DNA of 64,000 nucleotides from the NCBI GenBank assembly GCA_021737975.1, contig JAIPCZ010000005.1, positions 1-64,000 of the forward strand. The letters are read 5' to 3'. Positions within the stretch are counted from its first letter, which is position 1. Each line of letters begins with the position of its first letter. The DNA comes from Polaromonas sp. GTDB taxonomy: Bacteria; Pseudomonadota; Gammaproteobacteria; Burkholderiales; Burkholderiaceae_C. The notes under the pieces are model-generated. The model saw only the letters and a list, made by a program, of their open reading frames with translations. It made no database searches and had not been told where the DNA came from. A program made the position numbers and the translations under genes. Positions 14,862-49,494 of this stretch are shown here, piece after piece.

Positions 14862-16579
14862 ACGATATCCGCCGCACCATTTTGTGGGTGATTCTTGGTT
14901 TTTCCCTGGTCATGTTGTGGGATCAATGGCAGGCTTACAACGGCCGCAAGGCCACCTTCTTCCCAGGCCCCGCCGTTGTGCAACCCCAGGGCGCGGCGAC
15001 GGCGGCAAGCGCACCCAACAGCTTGCCAACCGGCGTGCCCACCGCCAGCAGCGGCGTGGCTGGCGCCGACCAAATTGCCGGGGCAGTGCCGGCAGTCGCG
15101 GCACCCGCGACCGCACCCGCTGCGGCGCGCGAGCTGGTCATGGTTGAAACCGATGTCTACAAACTCAGCTTTGATACTGAAGGCGGTTCGCTTGTCAAAG
15201 CCGAGATGCTCAAACACGCCGACATGGCCGACAGAGGTCGCAATTTCGTTCTCTTTGACGACAGCAAAGACCGCGTTTACCTGGCCCAGTCGGGCCTGAT
15301 TGCCGGCGCGGGTGGCCCCGCGCTGCCGACCCACAAGTCGGTCATGACGCTGGCCCCGGGCGAGCGCAGCCTCAAAGAGGGCAGCCAAAGCCTGGAGTTG
15401 CGCTTTGAATCGGCCGAAGTCGGCGGCGTTCAGCTTATCAAGACCTATACCCTGACACGCGGCAGCTATGTCGTGGCGGTCAAGCACGAGGTGGTCAATC
15501 TCGGTGCAAGCGCCATCGCGCCGCAGCTTTACCTGCAATTGGTGCGTGATGGCAACAAGCCACCCGGCGAGTCGTCGTTTTACTTCACCTTCACCGGCCC
15601 GGCGGTCTATACCGAAGCCCAAAAGTACCAGAAAGTCGAGTTTTCCGACATTGAAAAAGGCAAGGTTGACATAGAAAAGTCGGCCCAGAATGGTTACGTG
15701 GCCATGGTGCAGCACTACTTTGCCAGCGCCTGGTTGCTGGCCGACGGCATCAAGCGCGACCTGTTCATGCGCAAGGTGGACACCAATTTGTACTCGGTGG
15801 GCATGATTGCCCCGCTGGAATCGATCGCCCCGGGCGCCCGCAAAACCATTGCCACCACGCTGTATGCCGGCCCGCAGGAGGAGAAGGTGCTCGAAGCCTT
15901 GTCGCCCGGCCTGGAACTGGTCAAGGATTACGGCTGGCTGACCATCCTGGCCAAGCCGCTGTACTGGTTGCTCGACAAGCTGCATGGCTTCATCAGCAAC
16001 TGGGGTTGGTCGATTGTGGCCCTCGTGCTATTGCTGAAAATTGCCTTTTACTGGCTCAACGCCAAGGCTTATTCGAGCATGGCCAAGATGAAGGCGGTGA
16101 ACCCGCGCATCACGGAAATGCGCGAGCGCCTGAAAGACAACCCGCAGCAGATGCAGCAGGAAATGATGCGCATTTACCGCGAGGAGAAGGTCAACCCGAT
16201 GGGTGGCTGCTTCCCGATCATGGTCCAGATCCCGGTGTTTATTGCGCTTTACTGGGTGCTGCTGGCCAGCGTCGAAATGCGCAACGCGCCCTGGATCGGC
16301 TGGATTCACGACCTCTCCTCGCCTGACCCGTTCTACATCCTGCCGATTGTCATGACGCTCACCACGGTGCTGCAGACCTCGCTCAACCCGGCACCGCCAG
16401 ACCCCTTGCAAGCCAAGATGATGTGGTTCATGCCGCTGGCTTTCAGCGTGATGTTCTTCTTCTTCCCGGCCGGCCTGGTGCTGTACTGGATCACCAACAA
16501 CGTGCTGTCGATCGCCCAGCAGTGGGTCATCAACACCCGTATGGGCGTGCCACCGAAGTTTCACCTGCCCAAGTTCTAG
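14858..16579 (+). CDS. yidC: Membrane protein insertase YidC
   Basis: 573 residues, of the usual Gram-negative form. There is an N-terminal membrane anchor (ILWVILGFSLVMLWDQWQAY), an Ala/Pro-rich linker, a large periplasmic beta domain to about residue 350, and five C-terminal membrane segments (starting WGWSIVALVLLLKIAFYWLN; the cytoplasmic loop reads MGGCFPIMVQIPVFIALYWVL). It inserts inner-membrane proteins alone or with SecYEG. It overlaps yidD by four bases and is followed by mnmE after 22 bp. Confidence 0.98.
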   Translation: MNDIRRTILWVILGFSLVMLWDQWQAYNGRKATFFPGPAVVQPQGAATAASAPNSLPTGVPTASSGVAGADQIAGAVPAVAAPATAPAAARELVMVETDVYKLSFDTEGGSLVKAEMLKHADMADRGRNFVLFDDSKDRVYLAQSGLIAGAGGPALPTHKSVMTLAPGERSLKEGSQSLELRFESAEVGGVQLIKTYTLTRGSYVVAVKHEVVNLGASAIAPQLYLQLVRDGNKPPGESSFYFTFTGPAVYTEAQKYQKVEFSDIEKGKVDIEKSAQNGYVAMVQHYFASAWLLADGIKRDLFMRKVDTNLYSVGMIAPLESIAPGARKTIATTLYAGPQEEKVLEALSPGLELVKDYGWLTILAKPLYWLLDKLHGFISNWGWSIVALVLLLKIAFYWLNAKAYSSMAKMKAVNPRITEMRERLKDNPQQMQQEMMRIYREEKVNPMGGCFPIMVQIPVFIALYWVLLASVEMRNAPWIGWIHDLSSPDPFYILPIVMTLTTVLQTSLNPAPPDPLQAKMMWFMPLAFSVMFFFFPAGLVLYWITNNVLSIAQQWVINTRMGVPPKFHLPKF

Positions 16580-16601
16580 CCGCAACGCGGCCTGACCTGA
16601 C

Positions 16602-18008
16602 GTGAGCCTGCCACGCCACAGTGACCCGATCGTGGCCATTGCCACGGCGCCGGGTCGGGGCGCGGTGGGCATGGTGCGGGTCAGCGGCCGCGGCCTGCAG
16701 GAACTGGTGCTGGCCCTGTGCGGGCGGGCCCTCAAGCCCCGCGAAGCCACCTACACCCCTTTTCTGGACGCCACCGGCCAGGCCATCGACCACGGCCTGG
16801 CGCTATATTTCGTGGCGCCAAACTCTTTCACTGGCGAAGAGGTGCTGGAACTGCAAGCCCATGGCGGGCCGGTGGTCCTGCAATTGCTGCTGACGCGCTG
16901 CCTGCAGGCCGGCGCTGAGCCGGGCCCCGGCGGATCAGCGCGGCTGGCGCACCTGCGCGTGGCGCTGCCGGGCGAATTTTCCGAGCGCGCCTTTCTCAAC
17001 GACAAAATCGATCTGGCGCAGGCCGAGGCCATTGCCGACCTGATCGACGCCAGCACCGAGGCCGCCGCGCGCAGCGCCAGCCGCTCGCTGGCGGGAGCTT
17101 TTTCGCAGGAAATTCACCAGTTGCGTGATGCCCTCATTCACTTGCGCATGCTGGTCGAGGCCACGCTGGATTTCCCGGAGGAAGACATCGACTTTTTGCG
17201 CCAGGCCGATGCCCAGGGGCAGCTCGACCGGCTCGAAACAAACCTTGCCACGGTGATGGCGCGCGCGCAGCAGGGCGCGTTGCTGCGTGAAGGCATCACG
17301 GTGGTGATTGCCGGCCAGCCCAATGCCGGCAAGTCGTCGCTGCTCAACGCGCTGGCCGGGGCCGAGCTGGCCATCGTCACCGCCATCCCCGGCACGACCC
17401 GCGACAAGGTGCAGCAGACCATTCAGATTGAGGGTGTGCCGGTGCATGTGATCGACACCGCCGGGCTGCGCGAAAGCGAGGACGAGGTCGAAAAGATTGG
17501 CATCGAACACGCCTGGGACGCCATCGCGCAAGCCGATGCGGTGTTATTCCTGCACGACCTGACACGCATCGGCCAGGTGGCCTACCAGAACGATGATGCG
17601 ACGATTGCCCACACCATCGCGCAGAAAATCACCAGCAGGGTGCCGGTGATCGGGGTCTGGAACAAGCTGGACGCCGCCACGGCTGCGGTCTTGCCCGACG
17701 GCTTGCAGCTGTCGGCCAGGACCGGTGCCGGGCTCGATGCCTTGCGCCAGAAGCTGCTGCAGGTGGCCGGCTGGCAATCCGGCTCTGAAGGGGTTTTCAT
17801 GGCGCGCGAGCGCCATGTGCGGGCCTTGCAGCAAACCCGGGACCACCTGAAACAGGCGCAGTCTCACCTCACAAGCCAGGCTCAGGCGCTCGATCTGCTG
17901 GCCGAGGAATTGCGGCTGGCGCAGGCCGCCCTCGGGGAGATCACCGGCGAGTTCACCTCAGACGATTTGCTCGGCGTGATCTTTTCAAGTTTCTGTATCG
18001 GAAAGTAG
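16602..18008 (+). CDS. mnmE: tRNA uridine-5-carboxymethylaminomethyl GTPase MnmE
   Basis: 468 residues starting at GTG. MnmE with MnmG modifies the wobble uridine of certain tRNAs. The N-terminal tetrahydrofolate-binding domain ([17 protein letters not shown]) is followed by helical parts and a GTPase domain with G1 [10 protein letters not shown]2 TTRD, G3 DTAG and G4 NKLD. The chain ends in the essential FCIGK motif with the conserved cysteine. Its last 66 bp are duplicated at 19197-19262, where the second copy encodes the same 21 residues plus stop, a sign of insertion at this gene's 3' end. Confidence 0.97.
17943..18008 (+). repeat. Direct repeat, left copy (mnmE 3' end, attL-like)
   Basis: The last 66 bp of mnmE, including the stop codon. 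It matches 19197-19262 at 62 of 66 positions: the first 50 bp are identical and all four differences fall in the last 16 bp, at third codon positions. The terminal 18 bp, TTCTGTATCGGAAAGTAG, corresponds to the attachment site used by SGI1-type genomic islands in mnmE (thdF/trmE). Confidence 0.85.
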
Positions 18009-18040
18009 AAGTTACTCCAAGGTGCTCTCCACCCACGACA

Positions 18041-18907
18041 TCAGTTTATTATCGAGAGCAACTGCTGGCTTTCAACCAAGTTACGTACCCCGTGGGCATG
18101 GTCCTCATCAAAGACATTAGACTTGCACCACTCACCCACCGACCCCACATTCACCTTCACGACCTTGGGCCGCACGCTCCAAGAAACTTGCAGTGGTGAG
18201 CCCTTTTCGTTGTAGGCAGGGCCAGTGGTGGAACCAGCGTACTGAATAGGTTTGCCGGTCTTGGTCGGAATGTTCAGGGGTTGGTAGTAGCCCTTCACTT
18301 GGCCCACCTGGGTCAGCCGCTTGAAATCGGCGGCCTTGCTGTCGTTCACCAGCGCAAACACCTGTGCCTGCACACGCAGTTGCGGGTTGGCACCCGCTTC
18401 GTTCAGGCAGGCGTTGAGCGTGGGCCCAGGCTTGACTTGGGCAGTACTGAACACATAGTGCAGTTCAATGGTGTCTCCGGCCTGCAAACCACCGTGTTTG
18501 CCCTTGCACACTTCGGCCGCCAGCGGCTGGACTTCCTGCGAAGTCAGCTTGCCCGCATATTGGTAACCGGTGTCATAACCATGGCCATCGCCGTGCCCGG
18601 CAAATTTGGTGAATTCTCCCCCCTTGTGCTCGGCATTTTCATGGAAGTGAATGTTGCACAGATTCATCTGTGCAACAGGGGGTGCCGCCACAAAGGCGCG
18701 GGGGTTGTTACCCTTTTTTTGGCTCAAATCACGTGGTGACTGTGGACCATATCCTTTGCCCTCGGTGTTTTTGGTTAGGGAGGCGTTCTGGACCTCGATG
18801 GTGGATGCATCAGCCTTGTGCGCCACTTCGTTGGAGGCATGTGTAGGTTCGGCCGCCGTGGCCGCTCCGATGACGGCCAGGGCCGAAATTGTCATCCAGT
18901 ATTTCAT
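18041..18907 (-). CDS. Periplasmic delta-class carbonic anhydrase
   Basis: A 288-residue exported protein; the start at 18907 is chosen because a GAGGAAACAC ribosome-binding site precedes that ATG. Residues 1-22 are a signal peptide. The core has NLCNIHFHENAEHKGGEF (HxH zinc-ligand type motif), GHGYDTGYQY and the later ELHYVFS histidine, the pattern I know from bacterial delta-class carbonic anhydrases. It would interconvert CO2 and bicarbonate in the periplasm. Codon use and GC are lower than in the flanking genes, and the gene lies inside the mnmE-linked insert, both pointing to horizontal acquisition. The family call is by motif recall. Confidence 0.8.
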   Translation of the reverse strand: MKYWMTISALAVIGAATAAEPTHASNEVAHKADASTIEVQNASLTKNTEGKGYGPQSPRDLSQKKGNNPRAFVAAPPVAQMNLCNIHFHENAEHKGGEFTKFAGHGDGHGYDTGYQYAGKLTSQEVQPLAAEVCKGKHGGLQAGDTIELHYVFSTAQVKPGPTLNACLNEAGANPQLRVQAQVFALVNDSKAADFKRLTQVGQVKGYYQPLNIPTKTGKPIQYAGSTTGPAYNEKGSPLQVSWSVRPKVVKVNVGSVGEWCKSNVFDEDHAHGVRNLVESQQLLSIIN

Positions 18908-19070
18908 GTGTTTCCTCAAAAAAGTATGTAAATTGGTCTGGCTGGACCATATAAATGGTTATAAGTTACAAATTTCATTAATAACTGTAAAGATGGTAGC
19001 CTGAAAAAACATTCAAGCTAAAAATAGCTAAAAGTTAAATTAGCGCTTCTTGAAAGATTCGCCCAGGGTT

Positions 19071-19196
19071 TTACGCAAAAATGTTTGAGAGAATGTCGAC
19101 CTGAAACTGGCGCAACAGTTGCGTGGCGTCCCCATCTAAAACGTCAAACATCGCATAGATCAGTGCATTACAGTCTGCGTAGCGCCGACAAGTGAT
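19071..19196 (-). pseudogene. Short broken reading frame at the right end of the insert
   Basis: Read leftward, about 42 codons stay open (containing [20 protein letters not shown]) and end at a TAA at 19071. The frame enters the insert from the mnmE repeat with no start codon upstream, as if the 5' part of a gene was cut off at the junction. I do not recognise the protein; it may also be chance. Confidence 0.25.
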
Positions 19197-19262
19197 ACCG
19201 GCGAGTTCACCTCAGACGATTTGCTCGGCGTGATCTTTTCAAGTTTTTGTATCGGCAAATAA
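19197..19262 (+). repeat. Direct repeat, right copy (residual mnmE 3' end, attR-like)
   Basis: This copy still encodes the C-terminal 21 residues of MnmE ([20 protein letters not shown], then K) plus a TAA stop, but has no gene in front of it. The last eight codons and stop of the leftward MlaF-like gene lie on its opposite strand (19239-19262), so it is probably the original chromosomal 3' end of mnmE. Confidence 0.85.
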
Positions 19263-20054
19263 GCTGGCCGGGGGGCGCAGCGGCGCATCCAGCAGGGCGC
19301 TGGCACGCCGGCCGCGTTCACCCAGGAAAAACTCCCTGATGAACGGGTGCGGCTGGGCCATCACTTCTGCGGCGCTGCCACTGGCCACAATGTGCCGGTC
19401 CGCCACGACCGTGATGCGGGTGCTGAGTTCCAGCAGGGTGTCGAGGTCGTGTGTGACCATCACCACGGTCAGGCCAAGTTCCTGATGCAGCGACTGCAGC
19501 AGCCCACAAAATTCGTCGGCGCTGCCAGGGTCAAGGCCGGCAGTGGGCTCGTCGAGCAGCAGCAGCGGCGGGTCCATGATCAGGGCGCGGGCCAGCGCCG
19601 CGCGCTTGACCATGCCACCCGACAGTTCTGCGGGCATCTTGTGAGCCGCCGACGGGTCGAGCCCAACCATGCGCAGCTTGACCATGGCGACGTCCACAAT
19701 CAGGTCACGGGGCAGGGTTTTAAGCTCGCGCAGGGCAAAGGCGATGTTGTCGAGCACGCTGAAGGCGGAAAACAGGGCCCCGTGCTGAAACAGCATGCCG
19801 ACCCGGCTGGCCGCGCCTTCGCGCCCCATGCTGGCCGCGGCGTCACCCAGCACCTTCACGCTGCCGCGCGCGGGTACCTCCAGCCCCAGCATCTGGCGCA
19901 GCAGCACGGTTTTGCCGCTGCCCGAGCCCCCCACGATCGACACCATTTCGCCCGCATCGATGCGCAGGCTCAGGTCCTGGTGGATCACGACGTCGCGCCC
20001 GGCCGCGTGAAACACCGACCACAGCTTGTCAATCTCGACGACGGGTGTGCTCAT
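19239..20054 (-). CDS. ABC transporter ATPase, MlaF-like
   Basis: 271 residues with Walker [12 protein letters not shown], signature [14 protein letters not shown] and Walker [13 protein letters not shown]. The [10 protein letters not shown] signature and the C-terminal layout match MlaF/Ttg2A, the ATPase of phospholipid transporters that maintain outer-membrane asymmetry. The start at 20054 overlaps the upstream permease gene by ATGA; a long frame extending further upstream is a shadow of that permease. The last residues, SLFADTKT, are encoded on the complement of the residual mnmE repeat. No MlaD or lipoprotein gene follows. Confidence 0.93.
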
Positions 20055-21202
20055 AGGCCGACATTCTTGAAAACCACGGCAAAGACCGCATCCACCAGCA
20101 GCACCACGGTGATGGCCGTCACCACCGAGGCGGTGGTGCCCTGCCCCAGGCTCTCGGTGTTGGGCTTGACGCGCAGGCCGTAGTGGCAGCCGATCAGCGC
20201 GATCAAAATGCCGAACACCACCGACTTGCCCAAGCCCAGCCACAGGTTGCCAATGGCCACGGCGCGCGGCAGGGCGGCAAAAAAATACGCCGGTGTCACG
20301 CCCAGCACCACGTCGGCGGCCAGCATGCCGCCGAGCAGCGCGGCCAGCGTGGTCCAGACGCTGATGAGGGGCATGGCGATGGCCAGCGCGATGGCGCGCG
20401 GCAGCACCAGCCGGTAACCTTTTGGAATGCCCATGACACGCATGGCGTCGAGCTCTTCGGTGACGCGCATCACGCCAATCTGCGCGGTGATGGCCGAACC
20501 CGAGCGACCGGCAATCAAAATCGCCGCCAACATGGGGCCCAGTTCGCGGATGATCGACAGGCCCAGAATATTGACAATGAAAATGTCGGCACCAAACAGG
20601 CGCAATTGGCGGGACATCAGGTAGGCCAGCACCACCCCGATGGTGAAACCGACCAGCGCCGTCACCGGCAGCGCCTTGGCGCCGATCCGGAACAGGTGGC
20701 CCGAGACGTCGCGCCACGGCCCGCGCCTGGGGGCGCGCAGCAGCACCACGACGTCGAGGAGCAACTGGCCCGTCAGTGCCAGCAGCCCCACAAGGTGATC
20801 CCACAACAGCCAGAGTTGCTCACCCAGGCGCAAAAAAAGCTGCCAGAGCGTGCGGCGCGCCGGTTTGGCAGCGGGCGCCGTGAAGCGCGCCACCCTCTCC
20901 AGCATGGCGCGTTGGCCAGGCTGCAATTCCAGTTGCGCCGGCCACTGATGGCCCCAGGTGTTCCACAGCAGCTGGGCGCCGGTGTGGTCAAGGCGGGTGA
21001 TGGGTCGTAAATCCCAATTCAGCGCGCCGCTGTTGGCCACGTCGGCCAAAACCCGGCCGGTGCGGCTCCAGGCGGCCGGCTCGGCCAGGCGCGCCGCGCT
21101 CCAGCTGCCGGCCAGCAGCACGCCAGACGCGCCATCGGGGGCGGTCTGCAGGGTCAGCGTGGGGACGACGTCAGGCATGGTGTAAGGCGATGAGTCTGGC
21201 AT
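20051..21202 (-). CDS. MlaE-family lipid ABC transporter permease with N-terminal STAS-like domain
   Basis: The open frame extends to 21259; I place the start at the ATG at 21202, with another at 21178, because no clear ribosome-binding site decides. The first ~110 residues resemble a STAS/MlaB-like domain (LLAGSWSAARLAE; WDLRPITRLDHTGAQLLW). The rest is the MlaE permease, with ADIFIVNILGLSIIRELGPM and LIAGRSGSAITAQIGVMRVTEELDAM. With the ATPase downstream it forms an MlaFE-type core; the fused STAS part would replace a separate MlaB. Its substrate is probably phospholipid. Confidence 0.9.
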   Translation of the reverse strand: MPDSSPYTMPDVVPTLTLQTAPDGASGVLLAGSWSAARLAEPAAWSRTGRVLADVANSGALNWDLRPITRLDHTGAQLLWNTWGHQWPAQLELQPGQRAMLERVARFTAPAAKPARRTLWQLFLRLGEQLWLLWDHLVGLLALTGQLLLDVVVLLRAPRRGPWRDVSGHLFRIGAKALPVTALVGFTIGVVLAYLMSRQLRLFGADIFIVNILGLSIIRELGPMLAAILIAGRSGSAITAQIGVMRVTEELDAMRVMGIPKGYRLVLPRAIALAIAMPLISVWTTLAALLGGMLAADVVLGVTPAYFFAALPRAVAIGNLWLGLGKSVVFGILIALIGCHYGLRVKPNTESLGQGTTASVVTAITVVLLVDAVFAVVFKNVGL

Positions 21203-21321
21203 GTTAACGGCAACACGTTGGCCACCCGCTTTTTCGTCTTTGTCGCCAACATGCGGCAAAATGCCTGCAGAGACAAAGCGCCGCTGGCGCTGTGACCACG
21301 ACCCTAAGAAAGTGATTCGCC

Positions 21322-22998
21322 ATGAGCACCCACTTTGACTACATCATCATCGGCGCTGGCACCGCCGGTTGCCTGCTGGCCAACCGACTCTCAAGCGATG
21401 CGTCCAAACGCGTGCTGCTGATCGAGGCGGGACGCGCAGACAACTACCACTGGATTCACATTCCGGTGGGTTACCTTTATTGCATCGGCAACCCGCGCAC
21501 TGACTGGCTGTACAAGACCGAGCCGGATGCCGGCCTGAACGGGCGCAGCCTGCGCTACCCGCGCGGCAAGGTGCTGGGCGGCTGCAGCAGCATCAACGGC
21601 ATGATCTACATGCGCGGCCAGGCGCGCGACTACGACGCCTGGGCGCAGCTCACCGGCGACGACGCCTGGGGCTGGCAGAACAGCCTGCCCGACTTCATGG
21701 CCCATGAAAGCCATTACCGGCTCGATGGCGCGCCCGCCGTTCAAGACCAGGGCAAGCTGGCTCAGTTCAGCCAGTTTCACGGCGCGGGCGGCGAGTGGCG
21801 GGTGGAGAAGCAGCGCTTGCGCTGGGACGTGCTCGATGCCTTCGCCCAGGCGGCGCAGCAGGCCGGTATTGCCGCGACCGACGACTTCAATCAGGGCGAC
21901 AACGAGGGCGTGGGCTATTTCGAGGTCAACCAGCGCAGCGGCTGGCGCTGGAACACCGCCAAGGCCTTTTTGCGTCCCGCTTGTATGAGCCGCCCCAACT
22001 TCACGCTCTGGACCTCGGCCCAGGTGGTCAAGCTCGCCATCGAAGCCCAGGCCAGCGGCCAATTGCGCTGCACCGGTGTCGAGGTGCAGACGCCCGGCGG
22101 CCGGGTCAACGCGCAGGCCGCATGCGAGGTCATTCTGAGCGCCGGCAGCATCGGCTCGCCGCAGATTTTGCAGCTCTCAGGGATCGGCCCTGGCGCCTTG
22201 CTGCATCAGCACGGTATCAACGTGGTGCATGACGCCCCCGGCGTGGGCGCCAACTTGCAGGACCATTTGCAGATTCGCTCGGTGTACAAGGTGCGGGACG
22301 TCAAGACCCTCAACGTGCAGGCCAATTCGCTCTGGGGCAAGGCCATGATCGGGCTGGAATATGCACTCAAGCGCAGCGGCCCGATGAGCATGGCGCCGAG
22401 CCAGCTGGGCGCCTTTACCCGCAGCGACGCCAGCCAGCCCTACCCCAACGTCGAGTACCACGTGCAGCCGCTGAGCCTGGACGCCTTCGGCGAGCCGCTG
22501 CACAGCTTCCCGGCGTTCACCGCCAGCGTCTGCAACCTCAACCCCAGCAGCCGGGGCAGCGTGCAGATCAAGTCGCCTGATTTCTCCGCGGCCCCCGCCA
22601 TCGCGCCCAATTACCTGAGCACAGAGGTGGACCGCAAGGTGGCGGCCGATTCGCTGCGCCTGACCCGCGCCATCGTGGCGCAACCGGCGCTCGCCAGGTA
22701 CCAGCCGCAGGAGTTCAAACCCGGCGTGCAGTACCAGACCGATGACGATCTGGCCCGCCTGGCCGGCGACATTGCCACCACCATTTTCCATCCGGTGGGC
22801 ACCACAAAAATGGGCCGCGCAGACGACCCGATGGCGGTGCTGGACGCGCACCTGCGGGTGCGCGGGCCGGGCGGCGTGATTGCGGGCTTGCGCGTGGTCG
22901 ATGCCGGGGCCATGCCGGTCATCACCAGCGGCAACACCAATTCCCCCACCTTGATGATGGCCGAAAAAGCGGCCCGCTGGATCAGCGCGGGAGTGTGA
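21322..22998 (+). CDS. GMC-family FAD-dependent oxidoreductase (second copy type)
   Basis: 558 residues, full length for the choline/alcohol dehydrogenase group. It has the FAD motif IIIGAGTAGCLLANRL, signature 1 YPRGKVLGGCSSINGMIYMRG, signature 2 SAGSIGSPQILQLSGIGP, the catalytic FHPVGTTKMG region and the C-terminal GNTNSPTLMMAEKAA. It is closest in feel to AlkJ-like alcohol dehydrogenases that feed electrons to quinones. It diverges from the lipid transporter genes and stands alone. It is clearly distinct from the GMC protein at 6592, so it is not a recent duplicate. Confidence 0.92.
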   Translation: MSTHFDYIIIGAGTAGCLLANRLSSDASKRVLLIEAGRADNYHWIHIPVGYLYCIGNPRTDWLYKTEPDAGLNGRSLRYPRGKVLGGCSSINGMIYMRGQARDYDAWAQLTGDDAWGWQNSLPDFMAHESHYRLDGAPAVQDQGKLAQFSQFHGAGGEWRVEKQRLRWDVLDAFAQAAQQAGIAATDDFNQGDNEGVGYFEVNQRSGWRWNTAKAFLRPACMSRPNFTLWTSAQVVKLAIEAQASGQLRCTGVEVQTPGGRVNAQAACEVILSAGSIGSPQILQLSGIGPGALLHQHGINVVHDAPGVGANLQDHLQIRSVYKVRDVKTLNVQANSLWGKAMIGLEYALKRSGPMSMAPSQLGAFTRSDASQPYPNVEYHVQPLSLDAFGEPLHSFPAFTASVCNLNPSSRGSVQIKSPDFSAAPAIAPNYLSTEVDRKVAADSLRLTRAIVAQPALARYQPQEFKPGVQYQTDDDLARLAGDIATTIFHPVGTTKMGRADDPMAVLDAHLRVRGPGGVIAGLRVVDAGAMPVITSGNTNSPTLMMAEKAARWISAGV

Positions 22999-23208: not shown

Positions 23209-23967
23209 ATGGAATTGCTCATTGTTTCTGTTGCCTCCCTGTTTGCCGGCTTTGTCGATTCCATTGTGGGCGGCGGCGGCCTGATCCTGATTCCCGCCTT
23301 GTTTGCGACCTTTCCCAGCGCGCATCCGGCCACCCTGTTTGGCACCAACAAGGGGGCCTCGGTGTGGGGCACGGCCATGGCCACCTGGCAATACAGCCGG
23401 CAAGTTCAGATGCGCTGGACCGTGCTGCTGCCAGCGGCGGGCGCGGGGCTGCTGGCCTCTTTTGCCGGGGCCTGGCTGGTCACCGTGATGTCACCCGAGT
23501 TCTTGCGCAAGGTCCTGCCTTTTGTCCTGCTCGTGGTGCTGCTTTACACCCTGGCCAAAAAAGAACTCGGGCGCAGCCACGCCCCGAAATACTCCGGCCT
23601 GCAGGAGCAAGTCATCGCCGCCGGGATTGGCGCCGTGATCGGTTTTTACGACGGTTTTTTCGGTCCAGGCACCGGCAGTTTTCTGGTTTTTCTGTTTGTG
23701 CGCCTGCTGGGTTACGACTTCTTGAGCGCCTCGGCGGCGGCCAAGCTGGTCAACACCGCCACCAACCTCTCGGCGCTGGCGCTGTTCATCACCAAAGGCC
23801 ACATCTGGTGGCACTTTGTGCTGGCCATGGCGCTGGCCAATGTGATTGGCAGCCTGCTGGGAACCCGGCTGGCGCTCAAACATGGCACCGGTTTTGTGCG
23901 CGCCGTGTTCCTGCTGGTGGTCAGCGCCCTGATCCTCAAGACCAGTTATGACGCGTTTCTGAAATAG
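23209..23967 (+). CDS. TSUP-family permease (TauE/SafE-like)
   Basis: About 252 residues from the ATG at 23209; the upstream part of the open frame runs through a terminator hairpin and is not used. The protein is a polytopic membrane protein with the two TSUP half-repeats: FAGFVDSIVGGGGLILIPAL at the N-terminus and GFYDGFFGPGTGSFL in the middle. The family exports or imports sulfite, sulfonates or related small anions; the substrate is not predictable here. It is followed at once by a 44-bp palindromic repeat. Confidence 0.92.
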   Translation: MELLIVSVASLFAGFVDSIVGGGGLILIPALFATFPSAHPATLFGTNKGASVWGTAMATWQYSRQVQMRWTVLLPAAGAGLLASFAGAWLVTVMSPEFLRKVLPFVLLVVLLYTLAKKELGRSHAPKYSGLQEQVIAAGIGAVIGFYDGFFGPGTGSFLVFLFVRLLGYDFLSASAAAKLVNTATNLSALALFITKGHIWWHFVLAMALANVIGSLLGTRLALKHGTGFVRAVFLLVVSALILKTSYDAFLK

Positions 23968-24011
23968 TTGGGGTCAGAGCACGTCGCTGCGCGAGTGGTC
24001 TGACCCGCAAG
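23968..24011. repeat. 44-bp palindromic intergenic repeat, copy 1
   Basis: It begins with TTGGGGTCAGAGCACGTCGC and ends GTGGTCTGACCCGCAAG. GGGTCAGA and TCTGACCC form the outer stem. It lies between the convergent TSUP and mrdA stop codons and differs in the centre by a base or two from the copies at 49395 and 49451. This resembles a REP-type element and could also act as a bidirectional hairpin. Confidence 0.75.
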
Positions 24012-49374: not shown

Positions 49375-49394
49375 CCTCTAATTCATCTAATCGG

Positions 49395-49438
49395 TTGGGG
49401 TCAGAGCACGTCGCTTTGCGAGTGGTCTGACCCGCAAG
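49395..49438. repeat. 44-bp palindromic intergenic repeat, copy 2
   Basis: Same element as at 23968, with TTT in the centre instead of TGC. It lies just after the glycine-zipper stop codon and 12 bp before copy 3, in the same orientation. Confidence 0.8.
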
Positions 49439-49450
49439 ATTTCATGTTTG

Positions 49451-49494
49451 TTGGGGTCAGAGCACGTCGCTTTGCGAGTGGTCTGACCCGCAAG
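49451..49494. repeat. 44-bp palindromic intergenic repeat, copy 3
   Basis: Identical to copy 2 over its full length and in the same orientation. It ends one base before the radA stop codon, so the pair fills the whole gap between the convergent glycine-zipper and radA genes. Confidence 0.8.

Follow-up and report, generated by a model that had tools for sequence, protein, structure and literature searches.

The window (the whole stretch of DNA analysed, 64,000 nucleotides) carries a complete mnmE gene whose 3′ end recurs further along the same strand, enclosing a carbonic anhydrase gene, with an mlaF-like gene running into the second copy from the other side (Table 1). The two copies, 17943-18008 and 19197-19262, start 1254 bp apart and match at 62 of 66 positions, the duplication around a carbonic anhydrase that a preliminary description of this DNA had reported. 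Their first 50 bp are without a difference and form the longest exact direct repeat of the 64-kb window. All 4 differences fall in the last 16 bp, as had also been noted (P = 0.0025 for 4/4 if randomly placed over the 66), and all are synonymous (TTC/TTT, GGA/GGC, AAG/AAA and the stop, TAG/TAA). Elsewhere in the window a 45-bp exact tandem pair of the GGGGTCAGAGCACGTCGCTTTGCGAGTGGTCTGACCC type (49394-49494) can form a hairpin; together with a 22-bp match at 23967-23988, it resembles a dispersed palindromic repeat.

Table 1 Features of the mnmE locus, with positions in the window
Feature	Position	Strand	Basis or remark
mnmE	16602..18008	+	468 aa, complete ORF; Pfam and NCBIfam MnmE
50 bp of mnmE, probably native, first copy	17943..17992	+	Identical to 19197-19246; 42 distinct relatives differ at at least 3 positions
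attL-like 18-bp core, foreign-looking tail ending GGAAAGTAG	17991..18008	+	Coincides in position with the 18-bp repeat in four complete islands of the family; 4 differences from native core
Possible island arm (TCCA ... TCCA) beside core	18009..18031	+	Position-anchored matrix from 10 islands
Delta-class carbonic anhydrase	18041..18919	-	292 aa as called from TTG; PF10563, E 2e-79
AT-rich stretch upstream of carbonic anhydrase	18920..19196		GC 0.39, 277 bases; not found in any other among 120 genomes
Reading frame cut at right junction, 41 codons of open 3′ end	19071..19196	-	Translation
Right junction of non-canonical form, from insert to mnmE position 17943	19196..19197		Not seen in four islands with both ends
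50 bp of mnmE, probably native, second copy	19197..19246	+	Repeat identity and comparison with relatives
mlaF-like ABC ATPase	19239..20054	-	PF00005; best NCBIfam match MlaF, below curated cutoff; stop inside right copy
Native 18-bp core and mnmE stop (original gene end)	19245..19262	+	Tail identical to L133, one mismatch from L013; following bases match empty sites

Over the first 50 bp, each of the 42 distinct relatives sampled differs from the window at at least 3 positions and the two window copies from one another at none, so both 50-bp copies are probably the organism's own; donation by the same species is a possible alternative, the nearest sampled relative being only 92% identical over the repeat region. 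A foreign look is confined to the final 16-18 bp of the left copy; upstream of these, both copies have 50 bp of native appearance. The left tail (CTGTATCGGAAAGTAG) is identical in a single sampled relative (L019) and shows 2-6 differences from the eight sequences closest over the first 50 bp; an island probably supplied these 16-18 bp of mnmE. Two full 66-bp copies occur in this genome alone among 89 of the genus, a search that at E 0.01 matched nothing in 50 of them and could therefore miss divergent cases. Three other genomes of the 399 in the family sample have two matches to the last 25 MnmE residues, which are contig overlaps in G129 and G237 and two whole mnmE genes on two contigs in G417. 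No second example of the 66-bp duplication was found among these 89 and 399 genomes. The G417 genes (L172 and L178) may reflect a duplicate or a mixed bin.

The site is empty in 8 of the 29 same-genus loci examined (L128-L135): mlaF ends within the mnmE end and nothing is inserted. Such empty sites had been proposed as the thing to look for in close relatives, together with a 24-bp overlap of the two genes, which is the overlap worked out for L129. Because mlaF ends inside the mnmE end where there is no insert, and here ends at 19239, it is the right copy that carries the native gene end, as had been suspected. Its last 16 bp are those of L133, and the bases past the stop match L013 and its kin. 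The remaining 21 loci, one close relative among them (L139), have no mlaF within 1.5 kb behind mnmE. At L192, in the close relative G021, mnmE is likewise followed by no mlaF, the best MlaF-like match (46%) lying on another contig.

The insert proper comprises 1188 bp with one recognisable gene, its other reading frames being antisense or short. The PF10563 match spans profile positions 2-180 of 181, making the product a delta-class carbonic anhydrase by domain, with CO2 hydration as its predicted function; no match was found among solved structures. An ATG at 18907, followed by a signal-peptide-like N terminus, is a likelier start than the called TTG. The frame cut at the right junction has no Pfam, PHROGs or plasmid match. 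Its one weak local match (E 0.024) falls in a long frame, presumably SelO, on a Shewanella contig and is probably due to chance.

That the insert is of lower GC, as first described, is confirmed by a value of 0.521 against a mean of 0.615 (s.d. 0.035) for 1188-bp stretches of the window, 2.2% of which are as low or lower; the carbonic anhydrase has a GC3 of 0.66, compared with 0.77-0.87 for seven genes close by. GC reaches its minimum for the window, about 0.48-0.51, at the left end (151-1800). Relatives do not all share the carbonic anhydrase between the repeats, the pattern that the preliminary description had named as speaking against its proposal: the gene was not found in the 59 other genus genomes sampled (E 0.001). 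It is present in 5 of 398 other genomes of the family sample (E 1e-40), at loci none of which adjoins mnmE. The closest relatives, at 71-75%, are from two Limnohabitans (among the best 80 of 375 loci), and related DNA is carried by four Shewanella baltica plasmids that are predicted to be conjugative. Among 82 carbonic anhydrase loci checked (flanks of at most 10 kb, often shorter), none has mnmE alongside, the sole match being a 29% GTPase (L057). On sequence evidence, the carbonic anhydrase is an acquisition.

Several origins of the insert were considered and rejected. Transfer of a larger block from the Limnohabitans loci does not agree with DNA similarity confined to the gene (insert positions 133-878), and a phage origin of the carbonic anhydrase finds no match in phages and no confident PHROGs match. 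Insertion at a tRNA site fails on the lack of any tRNA in the window, and no known RNA family is present at 16000-22000 at gathering scores.

Islands at the end of mnmE occur in the family. In G129, a short contig that continues the mnmE end (C37, locus L188) carries a tyrosine integrase with an Arm-DNA-bind_3 domain, and a related integrase is found in 60 of the 399 family genomes (E 1e-60). The G129 integrase and its eight closest matches (65-84% identity) all have mnmE directly upstream (9/9), as does one further integrase at 45%, giving 10 of the 30 loci fetched. Among the eight closest matches (L316-L323), most have TCC-rich bases at fixed places after the core, which may be an integrase arm site. 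The genus has a related integrase in 38 of 89 genomes (E 1e-40), and none of the 12 loci fetched adjoins mnmE; the expectation of integrase-bearing islands at this site is borne out in the wider family. This genome (G000), only ~70% complete, gave no match to the G129 integrase at E 1e-40.

A search of up to 60 kb behind mnmE in seven islands located a second core in four, at 14.2 kb (G162), 23.8 kb (G236), 11.4 kb (G141) and 5.7 kb (G262); these cores show 1-2 mismatches in 18 bp, and identity extends upstream of them by 0, 1, 1 or 2 bases. G188 and G457 have no second core within 60 kb, and the G309 contig stops at 10.9 kb. Where both ends are seen, in four islands, only the 18-bp core is repeated, which is what a core crossover (~18 bp) had been expected to leave.

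In sequence, the left junction of the insert fits this 18-bp-core rule. The insertion lies directly after the 18-bp mnmE end, relatives have the site empty and islands of the family occupy the same core, upholding the original proposal of insertion at the 18-bp mnmE end used by SGI1-type elements. The right tail is native, equal to that of L133, and the left appears element-borne, the arrangement given for SGI1-related elements in the part of PMC9035990 consulted. The resemblance of the following sequence to an island arm is suggestive only: on a matrix from ten islands the 24 bp after the left core outscore 43 of 44 control sites (1/44 is higher), 8 of 10 true arms outscore the window's arm in leave-one-out comparison with two scoring lower, and 1.9% of all window positions score as high. 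The case for an island is weakened because this arm is weak, the genus integrase loci are away from mnmE (0/12) and the insert has no mnmE-specific integrase, holding the carbonic anhydrase and antisense or short frames only.

The right junction does not follow the rule. Here the core is preceded by 48 bases of mnmE, not by an island arm, and the repeat extends beyond the core by these 48 identical bp, against 0-2 in the four family islands. Because the first 50 bp look native twice, the simplest description of the right junction is that the island interior would run there into an empty allele, at native position 17943. We put at about one half the probability of an illegitimate join between the left end of an mnmE island and an empty allele, made either in metagenome assembly or in the cell through partial loss of the island, assembly from a mixed population being the slightly more likely maker. 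The repeat, the empty sites and the family's site-specific islands with their 18-bp repeats are observed; from these and the other features above we infer the membership of the left end in an mnmE island, the native character of both 50-bp copies and the origin of the right join. On this view the final 18 bp of mnmE would be the entry point of an integrative island, with strand exchange at the core start by a tyrosine integrase that is absent here. The left mnmE would then run natively to about 17992 and take its last codons from the island, its protein unchanged, with the carbonic anhydrase as cargo just inside the island's left end. The rest of the island would be missing from the sequence; at 19196, island DNA would pass, by an event other than site-specific recombination, into an mnmE-mlaF allele free of any insert, entered at position 17943 and contributing 50 bp of native mnmE together with the native core. 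Capture of a neighbouring mnmE end, one of three routes offered in the preliminary description, comes close to such a join with an empty allele. The other two, an unusual integrase and gene conversion, are not needed with the first 50 bp native-looking in both copies.

The genome, apparently a metagenome bin, is 69.5% complete in 66 contigs. Among 120 contig ends (60 of the 66 contigs), 12 pairs overlap head to tail by 43-218 bp at 86-100% identity, most of them imperfectly, and five more pairs terminate in the same 135-139 bp; these overlaps point to mixed strains. In the G129 and G237 drafts, the mnmE end is precisely where contigs break, and their overlaps, 119 bp and 56 bp, are exact, as expected of a block common to two alleles that then continue differently. 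Because of the mixed-strain overlaps and these breaks, a composite made in assembly is easy to imagine. For the two contigs to be joined, reads or a gap closer would still have to provide some bridge, and N is absent from the window and from the 120 contig ends. An origin of the join in a k-mer overlap of 50 is unsupported, the overlaps being 43-218 bp and none of them exactly 50 bp; the composite reading is still supported. The exact 119-bp overlap of G129 contig C37 with the mnmE contig looks as if occupied and empty alleles coexist there. Should assembly have made the join, the locus would serve as a useful warning: two alleles merged in a metagenome can leave a perfect repeat that ends where the alleles first differ within an integration core.

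That the join is real DNA we regard as somewhat unlikely, though it is the main rival. Most of the island would have been lost by recombination with an empty mnmE-mlaF allele, on a sister chromosome or in incoming same-species DNA, the exchange being homologous on the mlaF side and illegitimate inside the island and leaving a 1.2-kb stub of carbonic anhydrase and 50-bp mnmE scar. Such an event accounts for every base as well as the assembly version does, covering the foreign left tail, the native right tail, the 50 bp present twice and the frame cut at 19196, and the junction is free of N. However, both alleles must then have been present in the same cell and the illegitimate break must have fallen 50 bp upstream of the core, and neither the 89 genus genomes (50 without a match at E 0.01) nor the 399 family genomes hold a second example. 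If the stub is real, an island attL on one side and a 50-bp host-gene scar on the other would enclose cargo now fixed in the chromosome, a concrete route for mobile cargo becoming resident that can be read from the scar.

An integrase with a longer repeat is an improbable source. The element would carry about 66 bp of the mnmE 3′ end and cross over near 17943, like tRNA-gene islands, so that the whole left copy would be element-borne. The sharp repeat start at 17943 agrees with this, as do the repeats of 8-60 bp called usual for tyrosine-recombinase elements in the part of PMC5704250 consulted, but use of the 18-bp core alone is seen in all four family islands that show both ends. Moreover, 50 bp borne by an element should differ at at least 3 positions, and here differ at 0 while the last 16 bp differ at 4. 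This mosaic of 0/50 and 4/16 could also follow from ordinary insertion with a long mnmE copy and subsequent gene conversion equalizing the first 50 bp, which is more improbable again: it requires a long element-borne copy, absent from the family islands, and a 50-bp tract stopping exactly at the core. Least probable is a circle that took 50 bp of mnmE with it in an imprecise excision and re-entered the site, by core or homology, duplicating them; the order of parts would be as observed, yet two rare steps are involved and no such circle or second case was seen in the 89 genus and 399 family genomes.

Among delta-class carbonic anhydrases of Beta- and Gammaproteobacteria, the gene is an ordinary full-length member; unlike it, none of those at the other loci fetched sits at mnmE. 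A cis-mobilizable element (CIME), as defined in the part of PMC5704250 consulted, keeps attL and attR and has lost its integration and transfer genes. The insert is likewise short, cargo only and without integrase. Its left end has the core position of an attL with a weak resemblance to an arm, whereas its right end is not a normal attR, mnmE sequence taking the place of an island arm before the core.

Membership of the SGI1 family, a group that the first reading of the locus had brought up, is not supported for a 1188-bp insert with a single recognisable gene. Unlike SGI1-type elements, the insert lacks an integrase and backbone genes, shows no right arm and repeats 48 extra bp. It shares with them the target (the last 18 bp of mnmE), a gene kept whole and a native tail on the right. 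According to the part of PMC9035990 consulted, the last 9 bp of attR in SGI1-related elements are the host trmE end and those of attL the element's, a rule with which the native right tail of the window agrees; the left tail here is GGAAAGTAG, compared with GGGAAGTAA and GGGAAGTGA for the two tails given there (for further context of mnmE-site islands, see the part of PMC8409611 consulted). In the portions of the literature we looked at, we met no description of mnmE/trmE-site islands in Burkholderiales, which is not to claim that print holds none.

A further comparison is with the mnmE islands of the family (G129, G188, G202, G457, G309, G141, G223, G162 and G236). These have an integrase about 0.2 kb from the core and, in those that show both ends, an 18-bp repeat, whereas the insert is without integrase or normal attR. 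They share with it the site and the 18-bp core, and the first bases after the core are weakly similar. Whichever way the join arose, mnmE ends serve tyrosine-integrase islands with 18-bp repeats in the bacterium's own family.
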